Of a DNA stretch of 64,000 bases, positions 16,467 through 62,763 are shown one piece after another. The notes beneath the pieces are model-generated. The model saw only the letters and a list, made by a program, of their open reading frames with translations. It had not been told where the DNA came from and made no database searches. The DNA comes from Bordetella parapertussis (lineage in GTDB: Bacteria > Pseudomonadota > Gammaproteobacteria > Burkholderiales > Burkholderiaceae_B): NCBI GenBank assembly GCA_945887835.1, contig CAMCZQ010000002.1, forward strand, positions 1-64,000, read 5' to 3'. The first letter of the stretch is position 1, and each line of letters opens with the position of its first letter. A program made the translations under genes and the position numbers.

Positions 16467-16537
16467 TGCGGATGGCATCGCAACAAATTTTTTGTTCTGA
16501 GTCATTTCGACGTTGCACGTTGACATAAAGGCTTGCT

Positions 16538-18049
16538 ATGGCACGCATTGCAATAGGTGGTTTTCAGCACGAAACAAATTGTTTTGTCGAACCGAAAACG
16601 GATTTTGCATATTTTCAATCTCACCGTGATCGCCCGCCGCTCGTCTTCGGCGATGATGTCATGACTTGGTTAAGCAACAATAGTTTTGCGCTGACTGGCT
16701 TTATCAAAGACATGCGTCAAACTCATGAGTTAGTGCCGTTACTTTGGACGAGCGGTGGTGCGGGTGGTTTGGTTACGCGTGACGCGTTTGAGCGAATCAC
16801 CGGTGGTTTAGTTGGCGCTCTTTCTGCTGCGATGCCTGTCGATGCCATCTACCTTGATCTACATGGCGCAATGGTGACCGAAGATTTTGAGGATGGTGAA
16901 GGCGAAGTTCTCAGGCGGGTGCGTGCTTGCGTAGGGCCAAACATCCCAATCGTCATTAGCCTTGATTATCATGCGAACGTGACACCGCAAATGGTTGAGC
17001 TGACGGACTCAATTGCAGCCTATCGTACCTATCCACATATTGATCGTGCTGAAACCGGCCAATACGCCGCGCAAGCACTCAATGCCATTCTAAAACGAGG
17101 TCAACCAACTGGCCGTGCTCTTCGTAAAGCACCTTTTTTGATCCCGTTAAATGGTCAATGCACAATGGTCGAGCCCTCTAAAGGGGTCACGGCGCGCTCA
17201 AAGGTGGTTGACGGAGACCTGATTAATCTCTCTTACTTAGCGGGTTTCCCTCCCTCAGATCTTTACTGGTGCGGCCCTTCCGTGATCGCCCACGCCTGGA
17301 GCCAAGAGGCTGCAGATCAAGCTGCCGACGAAATGATGGCTGATATTCTGGCCCAAGAAAAAAACTTTGCCGAGAAAATGGTGAGCCCCGAAGACGGTGT
17401 CGAACAAGCGATGCGCCTGGCCAGCAATGCCTCACGAGCGATCGTCATCGCGGATACGCAAGACAACCCTGGTTGTGGTGGCTCGGCCGACTCAACGGGT
17501 GTGCTCAAAGCGTTGGTGGCGGCTCAGGCACAAGAGGTGGTTCTAGGTTTTATGTGTGACGCGCAGGCAGCTGCGGCTGCCCATGCTGCAGGAGAAGGCT
17601 CCAAGGTGACGTTGAAGCTTGGCGGGCGCTCAGGGCCGGTTGGCGTGACGCCATTTGAAGCGACCTTTAGCGTTGATAAGTTAGGCAATGGAAAAATGAA
17701 AACCGATGGTGCCGTGTCGGGCGGTCGGGAGATTGATGTCGGTCCGATGGCGCTACTGCGTGTGGACGGCATTCGTATCGTCGTCACGAGCAAACGCTTT
17801 CAGGCACTTGACCAAGCTCCCTTCCGGCATCTTGGTATTGAGCCAGCCGAACAAAAAATCTTGGTGCTCAAGAGCACATGCCACTATCGCGCTGAGTTCG
17901 AGCCGTTGGCTGAGCACATCATTGTGGTGCTGGCTCCGGGCTACTATTTGGCGGATCCAACCGACTATCCGTTTAAGAAACTGCGCGAAGGGGTACGCCT
18001 GAAACCACTCGGAGAGGTGTTTTCTGCCCAGCATGCCACCACCGGTTAA
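16538..18049 (+). CDS. M81 family metallopeptidase (MlrC-like)
   Basis: A 503-residue protein of the MlrC family, named for the enzyme that finishes microcystin breakdown but common in organisms that never meet the toxin. It starts MARIAIGGFQHETNCF. A metal-ligand region DLHGAMVTEDFEDGEGE lies near 108-124, SLDYHANVTPQMVE near 145-158, and the C-terminal domain motif ADTQDNPGCGGSADST near 305-320. AAAGG precedes the ATG. The stop codon overlaps that of the opposing Bug gene at 18046. Amide or lactam hydrolysis of a small molecule is more likely here than peptide toxin degradation; that is inference from context. Confidence 0.92.
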   Translation: MARIAIGGFQHETNCFVEPKTDFAYFQSHRDRPPLVFGDDVMTWLSNNSFALTGFIKDMRQTHELVPLLWTSGGAGGLVTRDAFERITGGLVGALSAAMPVDAIYLDLHGAMVTEDFEDGEGEVLRRVRACVGPNIPIVISLDYHANVTPQMVELTDSIAAYRTYPHIDRAETGQYAAQALNAILKRGQPTGRALRKAPFLIPLNGQCTMVEPSKGVTARSKVVDGDLINLSYLAGFPPSDLYWCGPSVIAHAWSQEAADQAADEMMADILAQEKNFAEKMVSPEDGVEQAMRLASNASRAIVIADTQDNPGCGGSADSTGVLKALVAAQAQEVVLGFMCDAQAAAAAHAAGEGSKVTLKLGGRSGPVGVTPFEATFSVDKLGNGKMKTDGAVSGGREIDVGPMALLRVDGIRIVVTSKRFQALDQAPFRHLGIEPAEQKILVLKSTCHYRAEFEPLAEHIIVVLAPGYYLADPTDYPFKKLREGVRLKPLGEVFSAQHATTG

Positions 18050-19032
18050 TTAGGCTTGCGTGGGAACGCCTTCTCTAGCCTAGGCCCCACATTGCCCTCA
18101 AAATTCTTGATGCTGACTTTGAGAACCTCTGGACTCGTAAAAATCGGTTGATATGTCAAACGTTTGGCAACTTCGATATATTCAGGGTCTTTGATTGCCT
18201 CTTCAATCGCTTTTGATATTTTCTGCGCCAACGCCGCAGGCATCTGACCTGGCCCCCAAAAATCAAAACCAAAAACAGGCACATTCTCGTTAATGCCCAA
18301 CTCTTTTAACGTCGGCACATCAGGCATCTCAGGCAATCGAGTCGGAAACGCCACCGCGAGACCTCTGGTTAAACCCGCTTTCACGTTTGGGTATACCTCA
18401 GGGGGTTGTGCCACTCGATATTGCACGTGGCCGCCAAGCAGCGCTGCGCCGCTCGGCGCACCGCCAGCATAAGGAATGTAAGTGATATCGATGCCTGCGC
18501 TCGCGGCACTTTCAAGGATAATCAAATTCATCATCCCACCTAACGCTGGCCCACCTGCGCTGAGTTTGCCTGGGTTTTTCTTGGCAAACGCGATCAATTC
18601 TTGCCAAGTTTGAAATGGCGCATCCGCACGGGCTTCGAGCATTCCCCACGCCATCTGTCCAGTCTGCCCCAGAACGGTCATTTCATCCCAAACCTTTGAA
18701 TCATAGGTTCCAGAATAGTAGTAGCTCATCAGCGCAACGTGACCGAGTAAAAGCAAAGTATGACCATCAGGCTCGGCGCGCAGCAGGGCTTGGGTCCCAA
18801 TTTTCGTGGATCCACCAGCACGATTCTCAACCACCACAGTCCCGCCAAGCGCTTTTCCTAATGGCCGTTGTAAAGCACGTGCAATCAAATCGTTCGCACC
18901 GCCCGCAGCAAAGGGAACAATGACACGAATTGGTTTACTAGGAAAATCGTTAGCGCTTGCCTGGCCCCAATTCAGCAGCAGCGCCACTAGACTCAGGGTG
19001 CACCACGTGGCACGAAGGCGATTTGACATCAT
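18046..19032 (-). CDS. Bug/TctC-family periplasmic solute receptor
   Basis: A 328-residue exported receptor. The signal peptide runs to about residue 28 (ASA|ND), then PSKPIRVIVPFAAGGANDLI, ENRAGGSTKIG and EPDGHTLLLL. Its DGH variant replaces the usual DGY. AAGGAG lies five bases before the ATG. Its TAA shares two bases with the TAA of the rightward M81 gene, leaving no space for a terminator. It is followed 27 bases upstream by an M28-type peptidase on the same strand, so it probably captures an amide or conjugate processed by these hydrolases. No permease is adjacent. Confidence 0.92.
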   Translation of the reverse strand: MMSNRLRATWCTLSLVALLLNWGQASANDFPSKPIRVIVPFAAGGANDLIARALQRPLGKALGGTVVVENRAGGSTKIGTQALLRAEPDGHTLLLLGHVALMSYYYSGTYDSKVWDEMTVLGQTGQMAWGMLEARADAPFQTWQELIAFAKKNPGKLSAGGPALGGMMNLIILESAASAGIDITYIPYAGGAPSGAALLGGHVQYRVAQPPEVYPNVKAGLTRGLAVAFPTRLPEMPDVPTLKELGINENVPVFGFDFWGPGQMPAALAQKISKAIEEAIKDPEYIEVAKRLTYQPIFTSPEVLKVSIKNFEGNVGPRLEKAFPRKPN

Positions 19033-19059
19033 TGCAACTCCTTGACTGAATAAGTCTGT

Positions 19060-20823
19060 TTATTTCACAGCGCGCAGCACATCTTGAATGAGTCGAGCCG
19101 CGTCGCTCAACGTGTCAACAATGCTATTGCGATTTCTTAATAACTGCGTTTCAAGCATCCAGCGCTCTGCCGCTTCAGGCAACTTAGCGAGTTTCGGTAC
19201 GTCGTACAACGACGGTAAGACCGTTGTTTGGGCGGTATAAGAGTAAGGATCATGGCCATAGCGACCCTTAACAGTACCGACCATCGGTAACAACAAACGA
19301 CTCAACCGCTTAATTGTCGTGTTGACTAACTCTGCTCGAGCCTCAGCTTGCGCGTCTTTTGCCACACACTTGCGATTGAGTTCGGTCGCGTGCGCATCAA
19401 AGAGCAAGGTCTGCTGGCGCAGCTTTTTCGCGCAATCTAGTGCAGACTCCAGCCCGATACTCGCACCCGCAGGCAACAACTCAGTTAGGCGATGAATGAC
19501 TTCATCTGCAACGGGTGTGAACGTACACGGAATAATAGGGGCAGTACATAGCTCCCAGACATACGACGCATACATTTTTAAATGTAGGCCCATCGTATCC
19601 CAATCAAGCTTGTCGACGGTATTTTCAAGGCTGTGGTGCCACCAACCTAAATTTGCATTACCACTGGCCTTGAGCTCTTCGGCTGTAAAGACGCCCAATC
19701 CAGAAAACATCGGTACGCCAACCCCGAAAAAGGAGGCGTCGCCAATTTTAACGGTGCGGCGCCAAGCTCGAGGACGATCTCCTAATAGTTTGGCATCGAT
19801 GGTTTCTTGAAATTGTTTGAGTTCCGCATTAGAAACGCTGCCCCAGCGGGTTGTACCAAAACAGGCGGGCTGATCAATTTGCAAATAAGCAATGCCATGT
19901 TCTCGCAGACGATCCCAGTTCTTATCCACATACCAAGTCGAACCAATCATCGTGCCTGTCTCGTGGGCTGTCCATAAGCCGAACGAAATTCCTCGACGCA
20001 AATGCTTGCGATACTTGGTGAAGAAACGCGCTAACTCAATCATGCAGGCTGAACCTGCGGCATTATCAGTCGCTTGCTCGCCCTCCCAAGAGTCTTGGTG
20101 TCCGCCGACCACAACGAAATCGTCAGAGCCATCAGCTGCCACTTCGCCAGTCGTCATTTGGATTGGGCGCCAAACATTATCGACATCGGCATGCAACTGA
20201 ACAGTCACTGAGCCTACTGTCAACAGCTCGCGTAAATGTAAGCCATCATCGCGCGCAATACCGATGCAGGGTAACTGCGTCATCTCATTGCGAAAGGTGT
20301 CAGGGGTTGGATTACCCCAGGCTGGCTTCACCGAACCATAGGGCAACAACTTGCTGTCAGCGTAGCCCCAGTTCATCATGACACAGCCTAGCGCGCCATA
20401 TTCTGCAGCGATACGCTGTTTCTCATGGCGGCCTGGATGATAAGACAGTTCAACCAGAACAATTTTTCCGGCAACATCTTTACCAACATAATCTGCGTAG
20501 CCACCTGGCCCTACGTTCACCAACTCAGCAGTCACGCCCTGCGCCGGAGTCGATACGCTGTGGCCAAGGGTATTGGCAACAAGAGTTTTGCCAGCGGGCT
20601 TCAATACATCCAGCTTACCGGCACGCGGAAAGCTGACTAAACCTGGGATCTCATGAAGCTGAGCCTGAGCCCCTGCCGCGGCAAGGCCGGCACAGCTAAA
20701 TTCTGCCATGCGTTTACCGTTTTCTGACCCAGCTAAGCGAGACGGTATCTGTCGACAAATATGCTCGACATCTGCACGTACACGTTCAACCGAAAGATCA
20801 CTGCTGTCGATCATGAGATTCAC
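19060..20823 (-). CDS. M28-family metallopeptidase homologue with altered catalytic Glu
   Basis: A 587-residue M28/glutamate-carboxypeptidase-like protein with a PA-type insertion (about 85-195) and a zinc-peptidase core. The metal ligands of the family are recognisable: His242 and the nearby Asp in GGHQDSW, Asp253 in ATDNAAG, Glu288, the Asp in YLQIDQP, and a His in WWHHSLENT. The Glu-Glu pair expected near 287-288 reads His-Glu (WTAHETGTMIGSTW), so the general base is replaced. No signal peptide is visible. I chose GTG 20823 because GGAG lies six bases upstream; the longer reading from 20874 would run into the upstream gene. Confidence 0.86.
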   Translation of the reverse strand: MNLMIDSSDLSVERVRADVEHICRQIPSRLAGSENGKRMAEFSCAGLAAAGAQAQLHEIPGLVSFPRAGKLDVLKPAGKTLVANTLGHSVSTPAQGVTAELVNVGPGGYADYVGKDVAGKIVLVELSYHPGRHEKQRIAAEYGALGCVMMNWGYADSKLLPYGSVKPAWGNPTPDTFRNEMTQLPCIGIARDDGLHLRELLTVGSVTVQLHADVDNVWRPIQMTTGEVAADGSDDFVVVGGHQDSWEGEQATDNAAGSACMIELARFFTKYRKHLRRGISFGLWTAHETGTMIGSTWYVDKNWDRLREHGIAYLQIDQPACFGTTRWGSVSNAELKQFQETIDAKLLGDRPRAWRRTVKIGDASFFGVGVPMFSGLGVFTAEELKASGNANLGWWHHSLENTVDKLDWDTMGLHLKMYASYVWELCTAPIIPCTFTPVADEVIHRLTELLPAGASIGLESALDCAKKLRQQTLLFDAHATELNRKCVAKDAQAEARAELVNTTIKRLSRLLLPMVGTVKGRYGHDPYSYTAQTTVLPSLYDVPKLAKLPEAAERWMLETQLLRNRNSIVDTLSDAARLIQDVLRAVK

Positions 20824-20837
20824 TGGTGACTCCGTGT

Positions 20838-22073
20838 TTAGCTTGCCGAGCCCACTTTGGGCACCTTTACCCAACCTGGGTCTAGCCCGATCGTACCTTG
20901 CGCTGCAAGTGCCTTGATCTGTTCGTCGGTAAAGCCAGCCGCCGCCATCACTTCAGCCGTGTGCTGACCTAGGCGTGGTGGCGGCAAGCGAATTTCACCT
21001 GGCGAGTCACTGAATTTGATGGGCAAACCCGCCATTGCAATTTTGCCCAGTCCTTCAAGATCCATCTCGTGCACCATGTCGCGCGCTAACACTTGCGGTT
21101 GCACGACAACCTTATCAATCGTATTAACTGGCGAACACGGAACATCTTGTTCGATCAAACGCGCCTGCCAATGCGCCAGAGGTTGCGTAATGATGATGTC
21201 ACCAATCATTTGAATTAAGAGTGACCGATTCAACGAACGCATTTCAGGATTTAAGAATCTTGGATCGTCGACCCACTCAAGCCTCTCAAGCACGGCGCAC
21301 AGGCCTTTCCACATCCGCTGATTAAATGATGAAATGACCAGCCACTGATCACTGGCCTGATACGCGCGATAGGTTGGGCTACCTAATGAGCCACTGCCGC
21401 TCGGGCCCGGCACTTCACCGCTTGAAAAATAGCGTGTGAAGAACTGTGCCAGCATTGACATATGGCCTTCAAGCAAAGACGTGTCAACGCGTTGGCCACG
21501 ACCTGTGCGATGTCGGGTTTCAAGCGCCATCATGACGCCAATCGCGCCAAACATCCCGGCCCCAACGTCTGCAACGGACATGCCCATTTTTGCAGGACTG
21601 CCCTCAGGGTCGCCGGTGATACTCATTGAGCCTGCGTAGGCCTGCATAAACAAATCGTTTGCGGGTTCTTTGCTCAAGGGGCCGCTTGCCCCAAAACCAC
21701 TGATGGCGCAATAGACTAGTCTCGGATTGACTGCAGACAAACTCTCGTAATCTAAACCTAAGCGATCAAGTGCACCGAGGCGATAGTTGTGCACAAAGAC
21801 GTCGGCTTCTTCGATCAGCTTACGCGCGATCGCTACGCCAGCAGGCGTTTTCAAATCAATCGCCATCCCGCGCTTGTTACGGTTAGCCGCGGCATAGTAA
21901 TAGCTCAGTGAATCATGAAAATAAGGGGCCCAGACGCGACTGTCGTCACCGGTGACGGTGCGTTCAATTTTGACTACGTCTGCGCCATAGTCGCCCAACA
22001 GCATGCCGCAAAAGGGGCCCGCCATCGCGACACTGATTTCTACAACCTTGATACCCTCTAGTGGTGCTGTCAT
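20838..22073 (-). CDS. CaiB/BaiF CoA-transferase family protein
   Basis: A 411-residue class III CoA-transferase with all expected parts: IKVVEISVAMAGPFCGMLLG at 8-27, GADVVKIE at 30-37, the catalytic Asp169 in SVADVGAGM, and TGRGQRVDTSL 20 residues later. The C-terminus carries PPPRLGQHTAEVM. It lies 14 bases upstream of the M28 gene and 49 bases downstream of an Old Yellow Enzyme gene on the same strand, so the three are probably one transcript. Unlike the pair at 9769/10977 it stands alone and would be a homodimer. It may be an acyl-CoA transferase or racemase. Confidence 0.92.
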   Translation of the reverse strand: MTAPLEGIKVVEISVAMAGPFCGMLLGDYGADVVKIERTVTGDDSRVWAPYFHDSLSYYYAAANRNKRGMAIDLKTPAGVAIARKLIEEADVFVHNYRLGALDRLGLDYESLSAVNPRLVYCAISGFGASGPLSKEPANDLFMQAYAGSMSITGDPEGSPAKMGMSVADVGAGMFGAIGVMMALETRHRTGRGQRVDTSLLEGHMSMLAQFFTRYFSSGEVPGPSGSGSLGSPTYRAYQASDQWLVISSFNQRMWKGLCAVLERLEWVDDPRFLNPEMRSLNRSLLIQMIGDIIITQPLAHWQARLIEQDVPCSPVNTIDKVVVQPQVLARDMVHEMDLEGLGKIAMAGLPIKFSDSPGEIRLPPPRLGQHTAEVMAAAGFTDEQIKALAAQGTIGLDPGWVKVPKVGSAS

Positions 22074-24368: not shown

Positions 24369-25256
24369 CTATACCCTACATAAGAACCTACGGATAGCCA
24401 TCACAACCTCGTCTGGTCGATACTCCATCGAGAGGCCCACGGCATTTTTTAGCTGCTCATGTTCGGCTCCTGGGATCAAATCACACAGAAGTCTGCCCTG
24501 TGGGCCATAATGCGCTTCTTGAGGCGTTAGCAACTCTAAGACCAGTGTTCTCACCTTGATGCGTTTGACCACTTCGGGCAAGTCAAACGCAAAAATCGCC
24601 CGATACAGCGGCGCGATACTCTCCCAGCCGTGCAGGTGGTCGGTCACTCGCACTTCGGCCTGCGCAAGGTCTGCGGCACTTGTGATCTGGGCATTGAGTA
24701 ACTCGGGCGGCCACCAAAACCCTTCAACAGCGGCCTGTGTCACGTTCCATGCTTTCAATAAATGAGAGCCGTCTGAACTATGGTCATACTTGGGAAAATA
24801 CTTCTCGCAATATGGCGCCAAGGCGGCATTGCGGGTTTGCATATCAAGGATCAGGCTATGCGTCTGCCCAGCCAAGATCACGTCGCCAACCCGTTCGGGC
24901 CAATTCGCAGCAAGCGCGGCGGCGATTTTGTTTCCAGTATGTAGACCAAAGATGTGGGGGCGATGCAACGCAAGCGCGTCAATCAACTCAGCTAGCGTTT
25001 GTGCCAAGGTATCAATCGACGGGTTTTCAGCCATACGAGCAGAGTAGCCAAAACCCGGCAGGTCAATGGCGATCGCTCTAAAATCTTTTGCAAGCAAAGG
25101 CAACATATGCCGATAACAGCTACTTGAGCGTCCGGCGGCATGCATCAAGATCAGTGGCGGCGCGTCTAGTGCGCCTGCTTGCGCATAATGAATTTGGCCA
25201 AGCCCAACTGTCGCATAACCATATTGAATCGAAACGTCTGAATGCTTGATTGACAT
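24369..25256 (-). CDS. Alpha/beta hydrolase fold protein with His at the nucleophile position
   Basis: A 295-residue alpha/beta hydrolase fold protein. The oxyanion-side loop is LILMHAAGRSSSCYRHMLP (35-53), then AIDLPGFGYS, and the nucleophile elbow reads FGLHTGNKIAA with His106 where Ser, Asp or Cys is expected. I have seen the G-x-H-T-G elbow as a recurring variant in this superfamily, so it is not a sequencing error, but classical Ser chemistry is excluded. ATG 25256 has AGGAG seven bases upstream and is preferred over the longer frame from 25313. It follows the PPOX flavoprotein gene by about 100 bases. Function is unassigned; a lyase or non-hydrolytic role is possible. Confidence 0.82.
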   Translation of the reverse strand: MSIKHSDVSIQYGYATVGLGQIHYAQAGALDAPPLILMHAAGRSSSCYRHMLPLLAKDFRAIAIDLPGFGYSARMAENPSIDTLAQTLAELIDALALHRPHIFGLHTGNKIAAALAANWPERVGDVILAGQTHSLILDMQTRNAALAPYCEKYFPKYDHSSDGSHLLKAWNVTQAAVEGFWWPPELLNAQITSAADLAQAEVRVTDHLHGWESIAPLYRAIFAFDLPEVVKRIKVRTLVLELLTPQEAHYGPQGRLLCDLIPGAEHEQLKNAVGLSMEYRPDEVVMAIRRFLCRV

Positions 25257-25353
25257 CTCTAGGCTCCTATGCCGATTAGGTTGTGCATAGAACAAAACTA
25301 TACACAGCGGCACATCAGTGACACATCAGCCGATCGGCCAGCGTTGCTGCCTA

Positions 25354-25959
25354 CTATAGCTCGGCGCGATACCGCGCTAACATTTCTTCTTGCGTTTCTG
25401 ACGGTGTCGTCATTTTTGCCTGCTCGTTAATCATGTCACCCATACTGGGCATCACCGAGCGCTCAATGTGACTTTGCATATCCCACAACTTTGAACGCAT
25501 AAAGGCTTTCGCGCAGTGCAAGTAGGCTTGTACCACATTGACTTTGATCACCAATTTTGGCGCACGCACTTCGGTCGTACACAACGCAAGATCTGCAGCA
25601 TCGTCTGACAAAGAGGCTGTGCCATTCACCCGCAAGGTCTCGTCCATACCTGGAATCAAAAACAGCATCCCAAGCTTGCCAGTGTGAATAATATTTTCAA
25701 GAGTGTCTAAACGATTATTACCGGGCGAATCGGGTATCAGCAACGTGTGAGCATCCACGACTTTGACAAAGCCAGGTGCCCCACCGCGTGGCGAGGCATC
25801 GAGCATTTGATCCAGACCTAAGCTCGAGATCACCACAAAAGGTGACAGCCCGACAAAGCGCTGACAGTGCACATCTAGTGCTGACAACTGTTTTTTAACA
25901 GCCCGCTCTTTAGCTGGGGCATATAAGCCGCGCAACTGCTCAATGGTCTGGATCATCAT
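25354..25959 (-). CDS. PPOX-class FMN-dependent flavoprotein (DR2398/MSMEG_1061-like)
   Basis: A 201-residue member of the pyridoxamine-phosphate-oxidase-like split-barrel flavoproteins. Its middle holds SPRGGAPGFVKVVDAHTLL (about 76-94), PDSPGNNRLDTLENI, and GMLFLIPGMDETLRVNGTA (about 117-135), the pattern of the DR2398 subgroup. Members bind FMN or F420 and reduce small molecules, but most are uncharacterised. Two ATGs are adjacent at 25959 and 25956. It sits 9 bases downstream of a zinc-type dehydrogenase gene, which suggests a shared redox step or detoxification role. Confidence 0.88.
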   Translation of the reverse strand: MMIQTIEQLRGLYAPAKERAVKKQLSALDVHCQRFVGLSPFVVISSLGLDQMLDASPRGGAPGFVKVVDAHTLLIPDSPGNNRLDTLENIIHTGKLGMLFLIPGMDETLRVNGTASLSDDAADLALCTTEVRAPKLVIKVNVVQAYLHCAKAFMRSKLWDMQSHIERSVMPSMGDMINEQAKMTTPSETQEEMLARYRAEL

Positions 25960-36064: not shown

Positions 36065-36292
36065 AATGGCTGGACTGTCGCTTGCTATCGAAGGCTCATA
36101 ATTTAACGCTTGACGAAAACTTGCGGCTCGCCTGGCGCTTTGGGACGCGGCGCGGCTCGCTCAAAGTGGCGACTGACGTTTGCGTCTTGCGCCAGGGCGC
36201 CTCGGTGTTTTCGGGCAACAAACAAAGTCTAAGCGAACAAGGCAGCGCAGGCGATCTGTCTTCGATGTATTTGTAAGGCGTGCGAAGCTGGC
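36065..36292. other. Intergenic stretch with an unassigned open frame
   Basis: 228 bases between the leftward deacetylase and cupin genes. On the plus strand a frame runs open from within the deacetylase gene to a TAA at 36274-36276. Its final 58 residues (NLTLDENLRLAWRFGTRR at the start, GDLSSMYL at the end) look protein-like and lie outside any gene. No start codon with a Shine-Dalgarno is visible. It could be the remnant of a gene whose front was lost or simply chance. Confidence 0.25.
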
Positions 36293-36691
36293 CTAGCCCG
36301 CAACGGCTTTGTCTTTAGACTCGCCGTAGGGCGGCGAATACATGACCAGCACACGCACAGGTTCTTCGCTAATGCGGGTAAAGGCGTGCATGGCGTCAGC
36401 AGGAAAAAAACAGCTGTCGCCAGGGCCTAATTCAGACACCTCACCCCCAACTTCGACGCGGGCACGGCCTTCTAGCAAATAGCAAACCTGCTCGATGCCG
36501 GGATGTCGATGCGGCAAGGCACCACCACCCGCGGCGCCAAGCTTGCCTCCGATTACACCCAGCAACACTTCGATATGCTGCGCTCCCACGGTTTCGGGCC
36601 CGATCAGCCGCCGATTCACGGTGTCGCCGTGGTTGGCCGGGCTGTAAGGGGTCACGTCAGATTCTTTGATGAAATAGCGGCTCTTTGTCAT
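36293..36691 (-). CDS. Cupin-domain protein
   Basis: A 132-residue single-domain cupin. The first motif is HRHPGIEQVCYLLEGRARVE (about 64-83), with a metal-binding His pair and Glu; the second is PGDSCFFPADAMHAFTRI (near 94-111). Such proteins bind a metal and act as dioxygenases, isomerases or sensors. ATG 36691 has GAGAGAG six bases upstream and is preferred over TTG 36706. It lies 63 bases downstream of the monooxygenase gene on the same strand, so it may process the monooxygenase product; substrate unknown. Confidence 0.88.
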   Translation of the reverse strand: MTKSRYFIKESDVTPYSPANHGDTVNRRLIGPETVGAQHIEVLLGVIGGKLGAAGGGALPHRHPGIEQVCYLLEGRARVEVGGEVSELGPGDSCFFPADAMHAFTRISEEPVRVLVMYSPPYGESKDKAVAG

Positions 36692-56169: not shown

Positions 56170-56257
56170 TAGAAATCCTTCATCCTTAAGTTTCCATCCG
56201 AATTAGACTACTTTTTGGAGCTACCCACACCTTGAGGCCTTTACCGCTAAAATGGCT

Positions 56258-56470
56258 TTGTTGGTGCTCGCTGCTTGGTTCACAGGCAGCAGTTCAACGG
56301 GAAGCAGAAAAATATCGCGGTATCGCTGAGATATTTAGCCTGCGCTGCCCCCGCAACGGTCAAGCGAACAAGCCTCACCGCTTTGCTTCTGTCACGCTAG
56401 CCACTGGTCGTCTGAACAAACGACTGGGAAGGCGACAGAGGTTGTTTTCGTTAGCCCGGATACCGGCCAA
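56258..56470 (+). ncRNA. Cobalamin riboswitch
   Basis: This leader has the conserved blocks of an adenosylcobalamin-type riboswitch in order. GGTGCTC is near 56263, and an ACGGGAAGCAG block is near 56297. GCTGCCCCCGCAACGGTC lies at 56344-56361, TGGGAAGGCGACAGAG at 56425-56440, and the B12-box-like AGCCCGGATACCGGCC at 56453-56468. It precedes the cobalamin transport and salvage genes on the same strand, so it would lower their expression when cobalamin is plentiful. An imperfect GC-rich hairpin at 56478-56501 follows and may be part of the switching region. Confidence 0.94.
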
Positions 56471-56477
56471 CAAGGTT

Positions 56478-56501
56478 GCGCGCTGTCTTCAGACACCGCG
56501 C
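56478..56501 (+). promoter_or_regulatory. Leader hairpin after the riboswitch, possible expression platform
   Basis: GCGCGCTGTCT, two-base loop, AGACACCGCGC: an 11-base stem with one mismatch, directly after the riboswitch aptamer. It lacks a following U-run, so it is not a typical terminator. Its place about 65 bases before the first coding start suits an anti-structure or ribosome-access control, but that is inference from position. Confidence 0.45.
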
Positions 56502-56566: not shown

Positions 56567-56800
56567 ATGACTCAAGTCGTGCGCAGTGAATTTATTTTAG
56601 GCGGTCAAAAAAGCGGTAAGTCACGTCGCGCGGAGGCGCTTGCGCAGAACTGGCTCGCAAGCGGGCCACCACATACGGCAATCTTAATCGCAACGGCACA
56701 AGCCTTTGATAACGAGCTGCGCGCACGTATTGAACGTCACCGACAAGATCGTTTATTGCGCGTGCCGGGCATGGTCACAATCGAAGAGCCTCTCGCTTGA
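56567..56800 (+). pseudogene. cobU: Truncated cobU (adenosylcobinamide kinase/guanylyltransferase), N-terminal 77 residues only
   Basis: The 77-residue product matches the first part of CobU: FILGGQKSGKSRRAEALA holds the P-loop (GGQKSGKS), ILIATAQAFDNELRARIERH the next conserved block, and TIEEPLA the segment where CobU normally goes on to PLALxxA. It stops there; a complete CobU has about 175-185 residues and needs the missing part for guanylyl transfer. Its TGA overlaps the TTG start of btuF (TTGA), so a deletion appears to have joined the cobU front to btuF. It could still be translated and couple translation to btuF. No Shine-Dalgarno stronger than GGAT is visible. Confidence 0.85.
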
Positions 56801-57669
56801 AACGTCTCGCGACACTGCTGTTACTGGCGCTGCTGAGCTTGGCCGCTCACACAGCCTACGCACAATATTCTGTCACCGATGATCGAGGGATCGCTAACCA
56901 CTGGAGCAAGCCCCCCGAGCGCGTGATTACCTTACTGCCCTCGTTAACCGAAACGGTTTGCGCGCTTGGTGAGTGCGCGCGCTTAGTCGGCGTCGATCGC
57001 TACTCAAATTGGCCCACGTCAGTCATGGCCCTGCCGGAGCTCGGCGGTGGCCTGGATCCAAATATCGAGGCAATCGTTGCGTTGGCGCCAGACGTTATTT
57101 TTACCGCGCAATCTTCGCGCGGCGCTCAAAAGCTTGAAGATCTTGGCTTAAAAGTGGTGGCCCTCGAACCTAAAAGTCACGCGGATGCAAAACGAGTCTT
57201 AGACAAAATTGCGCAAATGCTAGGCTTGAACCCAGAGCGCGCGCAACAACTTTGGCTAGCGACCGAGCAAGCTGTGACTGCAACCGCACGAACCTTGCCT
57301 GCGAGCACTCAAACCCTTCGGGTTTATATTGAGGTGAACCGCGCGCCCTTCGGTGCAGGCCCAACGTCTTTTATCGGTGAAACGTTGACACGCTTAGGCG
57401 CGCAAAATATTTTGCCCAGAAGCTTAGGACCATTTCCTCGCGTCAATCCCGAATTCGTCGTCCGCGCACAACCCAGCGTCATCATGATTAGCAAACGCGA
57501 TCTGCCAGAGATGCTCTTGCGCCCAGGGTGGGCCGCGATGCAGGCAATCAAAGAGAATCGCGTGTGTGCGTTTGCACCCGCAGAGCAAGATGTCTTGGTG
57601 CGCCCGGGACCGCGGCTCGCCGAGGCAGCAACGCTGATGGCGACTTGCCTAAAAAGACTCGCGCCATGA
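56797..57669 (+). CDS. btuF: Cobalamin ABC transporter periplasmic binding protein
   Basis: A 290-residue exported helical-backbone metal/cobalamin-binding protein. The leader MKRLATLLLLALLSLAAHTAYA|Q is removed. Then come PERVITLLPSLTETVCALGE, VGVDRYSNWPTSV, ELGGGLDPNIEAIVALAPDV (near 85-104) and INP-like FPRVNPEFVVRAQP. The start is TTG 56797, overlapping the cobU remnant's stop. The next gene btuC overlaps its stop by four bases. Riboswitch control, binding-protein class and neighbours all point to vitamin B12 or corrinoid capture rather than iron siderophores. Confidence 0.9.
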   Translation: MKRLATLLLLALLSLAAHTAYAQYSVTDDRGIANHWSKPPERVITLLPSLTETVCALGECARLVGVDRYSNWPTSVMALPELGGGLDPNIEAIVALAPDVIFTAQSSRGAQKLEDLGLKVVALEPKSHADAKRVLDKIAQMLGLNPERAQQLWLATEQAVTATARTLPASTQTLRVYIEVNRAPFGAGPTSFIGETLTRLGAQNILPRSLGPFPRVNPEFVVRAQPSVIMISKRDLPEMLLRPGWAAMQAIKENRVCAFAPAEQDVLVRPGPRLAEAATLMATCLKRLAP

Positions 57670-58691
57670 ACGCGTCGCTACCCGACACGCACTCTTCACA
57701 ACACTCGCGCGCGCTGTGCTCTGCCTGGCTGTTGGCGCTGCTATGTGTCGTTGTCTTGCTCGCCGGCTTGTGTGTTGGCAGCACGGGCGTCGAGCCCCTG
57801 TGGCGCTTGTTGGCCGACCCAATTGCCGCTCAAATTATTTGGGATATTCGCGCGCCACGCACCTTAGGTGCACTGCTCGCCGGCGCCTTACTCGGCCTTG
57901 CCGGTGCCATCGCGCAAGGGCTCTTTCGCAACCCACTGGCAGATCCCTTTTTACTCGGTAGCGCCTCGGGCGCCTCCGCTGCAGTCGCACTTGCTTTGGC
58001 CGGCTTTGGCATATCACCACTTGTCACACAATGGTTGCTCAGGCTAGGCCTGACCGCCGCGGCCTTCACGGGCGCGATGCTCGCCGTCTTTCTGACGCTG
58101 AGCCTGGCCCGCGGGGTGCAGCACACCTTACGCCTGTTGTTGGCCGGCGTTGTCGTGAGTGTGGTCTTAGGGGCCTTCACGTCTTTTCTGTCGTTAACGC
58201 ACCCAGATATTTTGCAAGCAATGCAAGCGTTTATGCTGGGCTCGACAGGTTTTGTAGGTTGGTCCGCTTGCGCCATCATGGGCATCGTATGGCTGGCCTG
58301 TAGCGCGGCAGGACGCGGCCTTTCAATAGCCTTAGATGGCTTGGCGTTAGGCGAGGCCACGGCCCAAAGCCTCGGGCTACCCTTGAGACCGCTACGCACA
58401 GCCTTAATTGCCACCCTTGCCCTGGCAACTGGCACCGCGGTTGCCCAGACTGGCTTGATTGCTTTTGTGGGGTTAGCCGCTCCCCATCTCGTGCGTGCAC
58501 TTGTCAAAACAAGTCACGCGTGGCTGTTGCCCCTGGCCAGCCTGATGGGTGCCGCCCTGCTATCGCTTGCGGATCTGCTGGCGCGCGGCTTGCTTGCTCC
58601 GCAAGAATTACCCGTTGGCGTGCTGACCGCGCTCTTGGGAGGCGGCTATTTAATGTGGCTGATGCATCGCCGAGGGCCCACGCATGAGTGA
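57666..58691 (+). CDS. btuC: Cobalamin ABC transporter permease
   Basis: A 341-residue FecCD/BtuC-type permease with about ten hydrophobic segments. Conserved loops are DIRAPRTLGALLAGALLGLA (about 60-79), FRNPLADPFLLGSASGASAA (90s-110s) and the EAA-like GLIAFVGLAAPHLVRAL near 265-281. The ATG at 57666 overlaps the btuF stop (ATGA), and 46 upstream codons of the longer frame lie inside btuF. It overlaps btuD by eight bases. It forms the membrane channel for corrinoid uptake. Confidence 0.93.
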   Translation: MNASLPDTHSSQHSRALCSAWLLALLCVVVLLAGLCVGSTGVEPLWRLLADPIAAQIIWDIRAPRTLGALLAGALLGLAGAIAQGLFRNPLADPFLLGSASGASAAVALALAGFGISPLVTQWLLRLGLTAAAFTGAMLAVFLTLSLARGVQHTLRLLLAGVVVSVVLGAFTSFLSLTHPDILQAMQAFMLGSTGFVGWSACAIMGIVWLACSAAGRGLSIALDGLALGEATAQSLGLPLRPLRTALIATLALATGTAVAQTGLIAFVGLAAPHLVRALVKTSHAWLLPLASLMGAALLSLADLLARGLLAPQELPVGVLTALLGGGYLMWLMHRRGPTHE

Positions 58692-59484
58692 CTCTCGCCC
58701 GACGCACCAAACAGGTGCCGCAGCCTTAGAAGTGAGAAACTTAGGCGTGACACTCGGTCAGCATCCTGTGCTTCAGGGGCTGAATCTGAAACTACCTCAG
58801 GGGCGCTGGAGCGCGATTGTCGGCCCAAATGGCGCGGGCAAATCAACACTGCTGCAGGCCTTGGCGGGTGTCTTGCCTTTCCACGGTGACATATACCTGT
58901 TCGACCAAGCATTGAGCCGCTTTACCGCGCAGCACCGCGCACGCCAAGTTGCCTGGCTTGCTCAAGGCTCGGTACAAAGCGCTGACGACCTGACGGTCTA
59001 TGATGTTGCGATGCTTGGTCGACTGCCGCATCAATCGTGGCTTGGCGGGCCCAGCCACGCGGATCATGTTGCCACCGAACGAGCGTTAAGACTGACGCAT
59101 GCCTGGCCTTGGCGCCAGCGCGCGCTGGGCACGCTGTCAGGCGGTGAAAAACAACGCGTCTTGCTTGCCAGATTGCTAGCCGTCGATGCTGATATTCTAT
59201 TAATGGACGAACCCTTAGCCAACCTTGACCCGCCCCATCAGGTCGACTGGCTGTTATTGGTTCGTGATTTAGTCGCCTGCGGAAAAACCGTCGTGAGCGT
59301 CTTGCATGAGGTCACGCTCGCACTGTACGCAGACGAATTAATTGTGATGGCTGGCGGCACAATCCAACACACAGGCACCCGCGACGACCCCGTCTTACAC
59401 CGCACAATCGAAAGCGTTTTTGACTACCGCATCGCCATTGAGGCTCTCGGCACCGGCTGGGTAGCTTTACCCAAACTTCTTTAA
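58684..59484 (+). CDS. btuD: Cobalamin ABC transporter ATP-binding protein
   Basis: A 266-residue ABC ATPase. Walker A is VGPNGAGKSTLLQALAG (about 48-64), the Q-loop WLAQGSVQSADDLTVYD, the signature LSGGEKQRVLLARLL (near 151-165), and Walker B ILLMDEPLANLDPPHQ, with the H-loop SVLHEVTLAL. It overlaps the btuC stop by eight bases. It powers the transport complex with BtuC and BtuF. A cobalamin substrate follows from the operon and riboswitch. Confidence 0.93.
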   Translation: MSDSRPTHQTGAAALEVRNLGVTLGQHPVLQGLNLKLPQGRWSAIVGPNGAGKSTLLQALAGVLPFHGDIYLFDQALSRFTAQHRARQVAWLAQGSVQSADDLTVYDVAMLGRLPHQSWLGGPSHADHVATERALRLTHAWPWRQRALGTLSGGEKQRVLLARLLAVDADILLMDEPLANLDPPHQVDWLLLVRDLVACGKTVVSVLHEVTLALYADELIVMAGGTIQHTGTRDDPVLHRTIESVFDYRIAIEALGTGWVALPKLL

Positions 59485-59500
59485 GACAGGAAAACTGAAT

Positions 59501-60070
59501 ATGCAGATCGTGACCCCTCCAACCGAAAAGCCCTACGAAAAATCGACCGGTGAACGTCGAGGCTTATTAATCATCAACACCGGCGATGGTAAAGGCAAAA
59601 GCACCGCAGCCTTCGGCTTAGCAATGCGTGCGCACGGACGCGGCAAGGTGGTCAAGATTTTTCAATTTATGAAAGTGCCGAGCGCACGCTTTGGCGAACA
59701 CCGCGTCTTTGAACAACTCAACGTGCCGATCGAAGGCCTGGGCGATGGCTTTAGCTGGAAGAGCCAAGACCTTGAGCACTCTGCTCGGCTCGCGCGCGAT
59801 GGCTGGGCTAAAGCTAGCGAAGCAATTTTAAGTGGCGAATACTTTATGGTAACGCTCGACGAACTCACCTATCCGATTACCTTTGGCTGGATCGCACTCG
59901 AAGAGGTCTTGCAAACTTTGCGTTCGCGCCCGCCAGAGGTTCACGTCGTCATCACGGGGCGCCGCTGTCCGGCAGAGATCATTGAAATCGCCGACACCGT
60001 CACCGAGATGACGATGATCAAACACGCGTTCGATGCCGGCATCCCCGCACAGCGCGGAATCGAAGATTGA
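59501..60070 (+). CDS. cobO: Cob(I)alamin/cob(I)yrinic acid a,c-diamide adenosyltransferase
   Basis: A 189-residue CobO/BtuR-type ATP:corrinoid adenosyltransferase. A short N-terminal tail is followed by the P-loop LLIINTGDGKGKSTAAFGLA (near 23-42), then KIFQFMKVPSARFGEH, LDELTYPITFGWI (near 124-136) and EVHVVITGRRCPAEIIE. It adds the upper adenosyl group to reduced corrinoid after uptake. GACAGGAAAACT precedes the ATG. It is 16 bases after btuD. Confidence 0.94.
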   Translation: MQIVTPPTEKPYEKSTGERRGLLIINTGDGKGKSTAAFGLAMRAHGRGKVVKIFQFMKVPSARFGEHRVFEQLNVPIEGLGDGFSWKSQDLEHSARLARDGWAKASEAILSGEYFMVTLDELTYPITFGWIALEEVLQTLRSRPPEVHVVITGRRCPAEIIEIADTVTEMTMIKHAFDAGIPAQRGIED

Positions 60071-60170: not shown

Positions 60171-60320
60171 ATGACCGCACGCTGACTCATGGCGTTAGGG
60201 ACAACAAGCGGCGCGGAAAGCTCGCAAGCCCGCACCCTAGACACCGTCTTTGACGGCTTGGCCGACTGCCTCGAGCGCAACAGCACGCCCGGCTTTCTGC
60301 AAGCCTTAATCGCTAACTGA
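60171..60320 (+). pseudogene. cobQ: cobQ remnant: start and end joined, middle deleted
   Basis: In frame from ATG 60171 the sequence reads MTAR, a TGA, then LMALGTTSGA, which fits the usual N-terminus of cobyric acid synthase (MTARTLMVLGTTS-x-AGKS). It then continues directly as a short stretch TLDTVFDGLADCLERN and FLQALIAN with a TGA at 60318-60320, which resembles the end of CobQ. A normal CobQ is about 480-500 residues, so roughly 430-450 codons are missing. The residual frame from ATG 60189 is 43 codons plus stop. I infer an in-frame internal deletion plus a nonsense codon. Adjacent cobO and cobT are intact. Confidence 0.75.
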
Positions 60321-61408: not shown

Positions 61409-62215
61409 GTGAGACAAGCTGTGCGTCACTATTTACTCGCTCTACAGTACTTCACCCGCATCCCGCTGCCTGAAGGTGTCGCGCGCTGGGTGGGCTTTAA
61501 TGCAACGCTGCAACAAGCCAGCCTGGCGCATTTTCCGGGCGTCGGCTGCTTGGTGGGTGCGGCGACCGGCGCCCTGTTTTATATGGCCGCTCTCTGCCTG
61601 CCACTCACCAGCGTGTCGCCCTGGCTGGCTGCCTGCTTAAGCACGGTTTTGAGCGTGATGCTGACGGGCGCATTTCATGAAGATGGGCTAGCGGACACCT
61701 CGGATGGCTTGGGCGGCATGGTGGCGCGCGCTCGGGCACTCGAAATCATGAAAGACTCACGTATTGGTAGCTACGGCGCTGTCGCGCTTGTGTTGGCGAT
61801 CACCACCAAACTTGCCCTCTTGACGATGCTCGGGCAAATTGATTTTGCTCTGGCGGCCTGGAGCCTGTTTGCAGCGCACGTTTGCTCACGGGTGATGCCT
61901 TTACTGATTGCCGCACGGTTAAGCAACGTGGGCGATGACCTCACCACAAAAACCAAACCTCTGGCAAACAAGGTCTCGCGTCAGACCCTGTTTGTCGCGT
62001 TGGTCTGGTTGTTACTCGCTTACCTACTGTTCAGCAGTCAGCATGCAACCATACTTTTGCTATGGGCCACCGGTTGTAGCCTGTGCGCGTGGTGGCTGAT
62101 GCTGCGCTTACTGACTAAACGCTTAAATGGCTTTACCGGTGACACACTGGGCGCGACCCAACAAGTGTGTGAGTTGGCTTTTTATCTAGGTATTTTGCTG
62201 GGCTTACCAAGGTGA
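61409..62215 (+). CDS. cobS: Adenosylcobinamide-GDP ribazoletransferase
   Basis: A 268-residue membrane enzyme that joins adenosylcobinamide-GDP with alpha-ribazole phosphate. It has about six hydrophobic segments and the family motifs FTRIPLPEGV (15-24), FHEDGLADTSDGLGG (near 90-104) and MKDSRIGSYGAVALVLAITTK (near 114-134). The GTG start at 61409 has AAGGGG five bases upstream. It overlaps cobC by four bases. Its substrate normally comes from CobU, which is truncated in this operon. Confidence 0.94.
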   Translation: MRQAVRHYLLALQYFTRIPLPEGVARWVGFNATLQQASLAHFPGVGCLVGAATGALFYMAALCLPLTSVSPWLAACLSTVLSVMLTGAFHEDGLADTSDGLGGMVARARALEIMKDSRIGSYGAVALVLAITTKLALLTMLGQIDFALAAWSLFAAHVCSRVMPLLIAARLSNVGDDLTTKTKPLANKVSRQTLFVALVWLLLAYLLFSSQHATILLLWATGCSLCAWWLMLRLLTKRLNGFTGDTLGATQQVCELAFYLGILLGLPR

Positions 62216-62763
62216 AGCTTTGGCTCGTTCGTCACGCGCAACCTCTCATTCAAAAGGGCCTTTGCTACGGCCAGCTCGATGTCGCGGCAGATCACGAGGC
62301 CACGCAACGAGCCGCCAAAGCTCTCGCGCCGCTGCTACCCGACAAACTGACACTTTATAGTTCAGGCCTGAAAAGAACTCAACAACTTGCATGCGCCCTA
62401 CAAGAGCAGTGCACGGCGTGGTCCTTTGAGGTCGACACCCGCTTACAGGAAATGAATTTTGGGCGTTGGGAGGGTATCGCCTGGGATACGATTCCTAAAG
62501 CCGCCTTTGACGCGTGGACACAAGAGTTTGACACCCACCGCTTTGGTGGCGCCGAAAGCGTGCGAGACTTACTATTACGGGTCAATCAGTGTCTTCTTAA
62601 CACCCCTCTTGATCGTGACGCACTTTGGGTCACGCACGCAGGAGTCATTCGGGCGGTGAATTACTTAAAACACCATGGGCTTGCTTCAAGTGCAACCACC
62701 CAGACATGGCCAGCAACAGCACCCGCCTTTGGCGAGTGGGAATGCTTGACGCTGCCGTTTTAA
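62212..62763 (+). CDS. cobC: Alpha-ribazole phosphatase (histidine phosphatase family)
   Basis: A 183-residue phosphatase with the family's LVRHAQPL at the N-terminus (catalytic His8), LQEMNFGRWEGIAWD (near 81-95) and WVTHAGVIRAVNY (near 140-152, second catalytic His). The GTG start overlaps the cobS stop (GTGA). It removes phosphate from alpha-ribazole-5-phosphate or the cobalamin phosphate in the last steps. It is the final gene of the riboswitch-led operon and converges on leuB with a 52-base gap. Confidence 0.92.
   Translation: MKLWLVRHAQPLIQKGLCYGQLDVAADHEATQRAAKALAPLLPDKLTLYSSGLKRTQQLACALQEQCTAWSFEVDTRLQEMNFGRWEGIAWDTIPKAAFDAWTQEFDTHRFGGAESVRDLLLRVNQCLLNTPLDRDALWVTHAGVIRAVNYLKHHGLASSATTQTWPATAPAFGEWECLTLPF

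Follow-up and report, generated by a model that had tools for sequence, protein, structure and literature searches.

At positions 56567 to 56800 of the forward strand of the window (the whole stretch of DNA analysed, i.e., the first 64,000 bases of the 70,704-base contig C2 of draft genome G000), an ORF with an ATG start encodes 77 amino acids that correspond to residues 1–77, the N-terminal part, of CobU. Its stop codon overlaps the start of btuF. The question raised by this locus is whether such a stub is the debris of an enzyme gene, a leader kept for the translation of btuF, a small protein in its own right, or an artefact of assembly. A literature search over titles and the openings of abstracts found no description of a cobU stub preceding btuF. 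The draft consists of 292 contigs, with 86.6% completeness and 4.7% contamination, numbers from which it is probably metagenome-assembled, and it is the single genome found to have the stub junction.

The operon and its two damaged genes

The gene order on either side of the stub is the one found in relatives, which is far from chance. The features of the locus are the following.

56245–56485, + strand: cobalamin (B12) riboswitch aptamer heading the operon (RF00174 in Rfam, 71.3 bits against a gathering score of 31.5)
56567–56800, + strand: cobU stub, very probably a pseudogene; codons 1–77, P-loop present, C-terminal part gone (PF02283)
56788–56796, + strand: deletion junction; net 405 bp lost, nine bases matching each flank at 7/9
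56797–56800, + strand: TTGA, the btuF start overlapping the stub stop, aligned with codon 11 of btuF in G009
56797–57669, + strand: btuF, periplasmic corrinoid-binding protein whose signal peptide is shortened (Peripla_BP_2, 2.6e-27); TTG start, 290 residues
57666–58691, + strand: btuC, permease (FecCD, 6.5e-74)
58684–59484, + strand: btuD, ATPase (ABC_tran, 1.5e-27)
59501–60070, + strand: cobO, corrinoid adenosyltransferase (PF02572, 1.3e-61)
60171–60320, + strand: remnant of cobQ (cobyric acid synthase); TGA as codon 5 of the surviving 5′ end, net internal deletion of 1359 bp at 60216/60220, last 32 codons
60337–61374, + strand: cobT, full length (PF02277, 2.2e-120)
61409–62215, + strand: cobS, full length (PF02654, 5.5e-49)
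62212–62763, + strand: cobC-like phosphatase, full length (PF00300, 5.1e-23)

Nine of the ten stretches scanned in relatives also carry the B12 riboswitch, at 66.5–71.7 bits. The tenth, contig L064 of G023, which has cobU and btuF, shows none above the gathering score.

The sequence-only reading had described a CobU front of 77 residues with a P-loop, whose TGA overlaps the TTG of btuF; both ORFs are confirmed, and the stub matches the Pfam CobU profile with 51.6 bits (E = 1e-13), above the cut-off of 27. With the family of CobU/CobP adenosylcobinamide kinases/adenosylcobinamide-phosphate guanylyltransferases (PF02283; PDB 1c9k/1cbu, 8yep), the stub shares the N-terminal part and the P-loop. 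Unlike the family, it covers just profile positions 2–60 of 168, so that most of the domain is missing and the match falls short of a full-length one. The blocks VVDCLTLW and NEIGLG, common to the CobU of G010 and a solved CobU, are absent. At the equivalent place, G010 has a cobU of 200 residues, with 96% identity across the 77 codons of the stub.

The operon has a second lesion, which the sequence-only reading overlooked. Between cobO and cobT, cobQ has 502 codons in G008, G009, and G010, whereas in the window it is doubly broken, by the deletion and by the early TGA. A protein search for CobQ in G000 recovers just residues 471–501, and the 32 codons of the tail show three synonymous changes and one nonsynonymous change. 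The genes for import and adenosylation (btuF, btuC, btuD, and cobO) are full length. Relative to these close relatives, both deletions and the cobQ stop are evident from the alignments.

The alignment of the window to G009, over some 60 kb, contains 37 small gaps, of which 36 span 1–4 bases (gaps counted across all genes together). These being few and small, the contig appears not to be error-ridden. Compared with G009, the window also has about 4.3 kb extra at 16471–20845 and about 0.9 kb extra at 24400–25354, and it lacks about 5.3 kb at 36112–36308. Hence, deletions are not limited to the B12 operon.

The cobU–btuF junction and the start of btuF

In G008, G009, and G010, btuF starts with GTG. 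In G010 the 200-codon cobU ends in TAA, followed after two bases by this GTG, and G009 is arranged identically. DNA alignment gives the same net loss of 405 bp in the window relative to either of these two genomes and places the break within 56788–56796. Of the nine junction bases, 7/9 agree with the cobU side and 7/9 with the btuF side (G009; counted on the alignment). What disappeared comprises about the last 124 codons of cobU, the Shine-Dalgarno sequence of btuF, and the first ten codons of btuF, including its GTG. The earlier proposal that a deletion joined the front of cobU to btuF is therefore borne out, as the stub is disrupted relative to the intact orthologs of close relatives. A frameshift with the remainder of cobU nearby was ruled out, because btuF begins at the stop of the stub and the draft genome does not contain the missing part.

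BtuF itself is well preserved, with 92–96% identity to its close relatives (96% to G010, and 97% over residues 31–300 of the latter). The remaining signal peptide, MKRLATLLLLALLSLAAHTAYA, seems complete when read by eye. Upstream of the TTG at 56797, the btuF frame has no ATG, GTG, or TTG. The best duplex of btuF with the anti-Shine-Dalgarno sequence reaches −2.1 kcal/mol in the window versus −5.6 kcal/mol in G008–G010, and the window lacks the AAGG-type sequence at the cobU 3′ end. In the same operon the corresponding values are −0.9 kcal/mol for btuC and −2.4 kcal/mol for cobC, so that the weakness of the btuF site is not extreme.

The stub had been taken to be special for the btuF start at TTG and for the four-base TTGA, a view that does not survive comparison with the genus. 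Its outlying members include nine genomes in which cobU is full length and the junction can be read, and in 9/9 of these a candidate btuF start shares four bases with the cobU stop (TTGA in eight, GTGA in G016). As this overlap is usual there, neither the TTG nor the TTGA signals a special device. The idea that TTGA is a scar unique to the stub is refuted by the eight genomes. In G023 the TTG is the sole start candidate ahead of the aligned part of btuF; in those outlying genomes the overlapping codon is the putative btuF start. For the btuF leader counted from the TTG, dN/dS was 0.45–0.86 in five pairs and undefined in a sixth (the six pairs among four of the eight TTGA genomes), values that neither prove nor exclude TTG as their start.

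Inheritance of the TTGA from the outgroups was considered and rejected. The TTG of the window stands 22 codons before the putative mature Gln, versus 32–46 codons in G023, G028, and G025 (distances counted by eye on three outgroup translations, with Gln taken as the mature start). This difference in spacing, together with the alignment to codon 11 of the G009 btuF, indicates that the TTGA was created anew. On this comparison, the window has regained by a new route the geometry usual in the genus, minus the AAGG-type sequence.

CobU, CobS, and CobQ across the genus

The genus set contains 32 genomes, including G000. PF02283 has matches in 13 of them, namely 11 complete proteins, one split over two contig ends in G008, and the stub of G000. 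The two pieces of G008 overlap with 138/138 identical bases, and the gene is therefore counted as complete. The two G008 contigs that end inside cobU, L048 and L049, differ in their identity to the window over long matches (about 79–88% for the upstream and about 95% for the downstream contig), which suggests that the assembly is a strain mixture. The 13 genomes with a PF02283 match are also the ones that have CobS, and G000 alone among them lacks a complete CobU; a truncated cobU alongside cobS is thus seen once in the genus.

The genome of the window was also searched, as had been proposed, for another complete cobU or a cobY. Neither a second CobU nor the lost part of cobU was found in the draft, and no CobY-family match passes the cut-off. 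The six weak CobY matches in G000 all lie below 174.7 bits, and weak matches occur in all 14 control genomes, one of which passes; replacement by CobY was accordingly dismissed.

Homologs of about 77 residues were likewise sought elsewhere, since they would have spoken against a truncation. None occurs among the 12 other CobU of the genus. Among 200 sampled genomes of the family (G000 and some genus members included), CobU is present in eight, and the seven besides G000 have frames of at least 192 codons. A plasmid search with the stub gave 36 records, all below 60% identity; the top one, unannotated and the sole record opened, is a CobU of 173 residues. Within the material examined, the stub is a singleton.

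A close CobO is present in 17/32 genomes of the genus. The B12 domain of MetH is found in 30/32 genomes, G000 included, CbiB in 1/32 (G016), and CbiC in none of the 32, again including G000. Judged by these markers, the genus uses B12 without making corrins. The frame with the MetH B12 domain has 627–656 codons in G000 (C96, 5032–5850), G007–G010, G012, G014, G025, G028, and G030, and 1258–1315 codons in most other members, with a few intermediate, as if metH had been divided into two genes in the clade that bears cobU. A FastTree phylogeny of BtuF, BtuC, BtuD, and CobO from 17 genomes places G000 among G008–G010 with weak support (0.51, 0.62), and the group of G028, G012, and G014 is also weakly supported (0.34). 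Relatives of the window's btuF occur in four metagenome-assembled records, labeled Alcaligenaceae bacterium (bin.388; Baikal-G1), uncultured beta proteobacterium (Kiruna2), and Gammaproteobacteria bacterium (SFB_Fresh), labels that suggest fresh water.

The distribution of cobQ is more irregular. Within the 13 genomes with CobU and CobS matches, cobQ is full length in eight (G008, G009, G010, G016, G023, G025, G027, and G030), a remnant in three (G000, G007, and G028), and undetected in two (G012 and G014). Three genomes that lack CobS (G019, G020, and G029) have kept it. In coordinates of the intact gene of G030, G028 retains bases 12–73, 571–730, and 1407–1494, G007 retains 12–95 and 1448–1494, and G012 and G014 have the 3′ end alone, from 1446. 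In all four cases cobO and cobT are in place around the deleted gene (L075, 3003–3180, in G007; L057, 9992–10406, in G028; the spacers of L060 and L061 in G014 and G012, respectively). Because G028 retains DNA missing from G007 and vice versa, and the break of G000 lies elsewhere, cobQ has been lost at least three separate times. The 3′ breaks of G007 (1448) and of G012 and G014 (1446) are nearly identical, and the loss in the latter two may continue the one in G007. Without CbiB, the product of CobQ has no known route to cobinamide. Given the near absence of CbiB and the absence of CbiC, cobQ is without known use in nearly all these genomes, which would explain its repeated loss. As to the order of loss, the distribution suggests that within the genus cobQ has gone at least three times and cobU once among the genomes that keep cobS.

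Readings of the stub

The 77-codon ORF is very probably a young deletion pseudogene, in an operon reduced from cobinamide salvage to B12 import and adenosylation. In its favor are the equal net loss of 405 bp relative to two relatives, the full length of cobU in these relatives, and the independent losses of cobQ elsewhere; against it stands the single draft genome, the junction having been found in no other. On this reading, an illegitimate deletion with one end in cobU codons 74–77 and the other some ten codons inside btuF took out the C-terminal part of CobU along with the native Shine-Dalgarno sequence, GTG start, and N-terminal codons of btuF. An internal Leu codon, the TTG immediately preceding the signal-peptide core, would now be able to start btuF, and this ability is presumably why btuF survived. 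The cobU frame reads into the TGA within TTGA, and since it ends in overlap with the TTG, the stub may still be the frame that delivers ribosomes to btuF, though as a side effect of the deletion rather than a kept device. With cobQ gone too, the operon would come down to the riboswitch, btuFCD, and cobO, leaving cobT, cobS, and cobC without the product of CobU. From this arrangement we infer the loss of cobinamide salvage, a TTG start by coupling, and the recency of the change.

Relative to G010 and G009, the stub has two nonsynonymous changes and one synonymous change specific to G000 over 75 codons, too few to separate constraint from youth. The mean dS between G000 and G010 is about 0.11 over seven neighboring genes, and simple arithmetic from this value gives about ten nonsynonymous changes expected in the stub under neutral drift since the split, versus the two observed. 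The stub is therefore either young or constrained, and youth appears the simpler reading. For cobT, cobS, cobC, and btuF, dN/dS relative to G010 is 0.11–0.24, a ratio made little informative by the short time. The three cob genes show no clear relaxation of constraint, which speaks against the pseudogene reading, though the elapsed time may be too short for it. Attempts to infer selection or dates from substitutions were abandoned, changes being too few.

Selection could instead keep the stub as a translational leader, i.e., a degraded enzyme gene turned, behind a B12 riboswitch, into the only route of ribosomes to btuF, with its start and frame under selection; ribosomes ending at the TGA would restart at the TTG, and btuF would require the stub. 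We regard this as unlikely. Ribosome delivery would explain the translation of btuF after the loss of its Shine-Dalgarno sequence, the first ATG, GTG, or TTG in the btuF frame is the one that overlaps the stub stop, and the stub frame is unbroken with few amino acid changes. In most tested cases, overlapping pairs of the types ATGA and TGATG proved to be coupled (PMC6728339); TTGA is absent from that paper's text. The likeness to such termination–reinitiation pairs is the four-base overlap, which the relatives also have. Unlike them, the upstream gene is dead here, the start is TTG, the Shine-Dalgarno sequence is lost, and the coupling is putative. Because the overlap is usual in the genus alongside full-length cobU, it does not point to a new role; youth accounts for the open frame without selection, and coupling would require an open frame alone, not the CobU sequence. 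More doubtful still is that the deletion is an artefact of assembly or binning, or a minor strain variant, in an organism with an intact cobU. A single draft in many contigs leaves some room for this, but the homology at the junction is short and imperfect, with no repeat of assembly length, and 7/9 bases are far below the lengths that usually mislead assemblers. Moreover, cobQ has a nonsense codon in addition to its own deletion, the lost part of cobU is nowhere else in the draft, and elsewhere in the window the alignment to G009 has few small gaps, yet larger differences as well. Both deletions are judged real and probably recent. Least credible by far is a functional small protein of 77 residues, such as a nucleotide-binding regulator, for which the retained P-loop might speak; the lost VVDCLTLW and NEIGLG blocks and the lack of any homolog of similar length in the genus, the family sample, and the plasmid match opened argue against it.

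The stub sets G000 apart from its relatives. Cobinamide salvagers have nucleotide-loop assembly genes and lack most corrin-ring genes, according to PMC6461909. Relatives such as G009, G010, and G025 have such a set, with cobU, cobT, cobS, cobC, btuFCD, and cobO downstream of a B12 riboswitch and no CbiC. On the one marker used, CbiC, G000 also lacks corrin-ring synthesis, but its nucleotide-loop set is incomplete, with a mere stub of cobU beside cobT, cobS, and the cobC-like gene. Without working cobU and cobQ, the window falls outside that set. That some partial cobamide pathways of this kind are possibly being lost has already been suggested in print, in PMC6461909. The operon would then be a clear case of ordinary gene decay, a B12 operon caught during reduction, in which two-thirds of cobU and nearly all of cobQ are gone and the genes of vitamin import are intact. 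It also carries a warning, as the presence of cobT, cobS, and cobC would mislead one into inferring that G000 completes cobamides from cobinamide.
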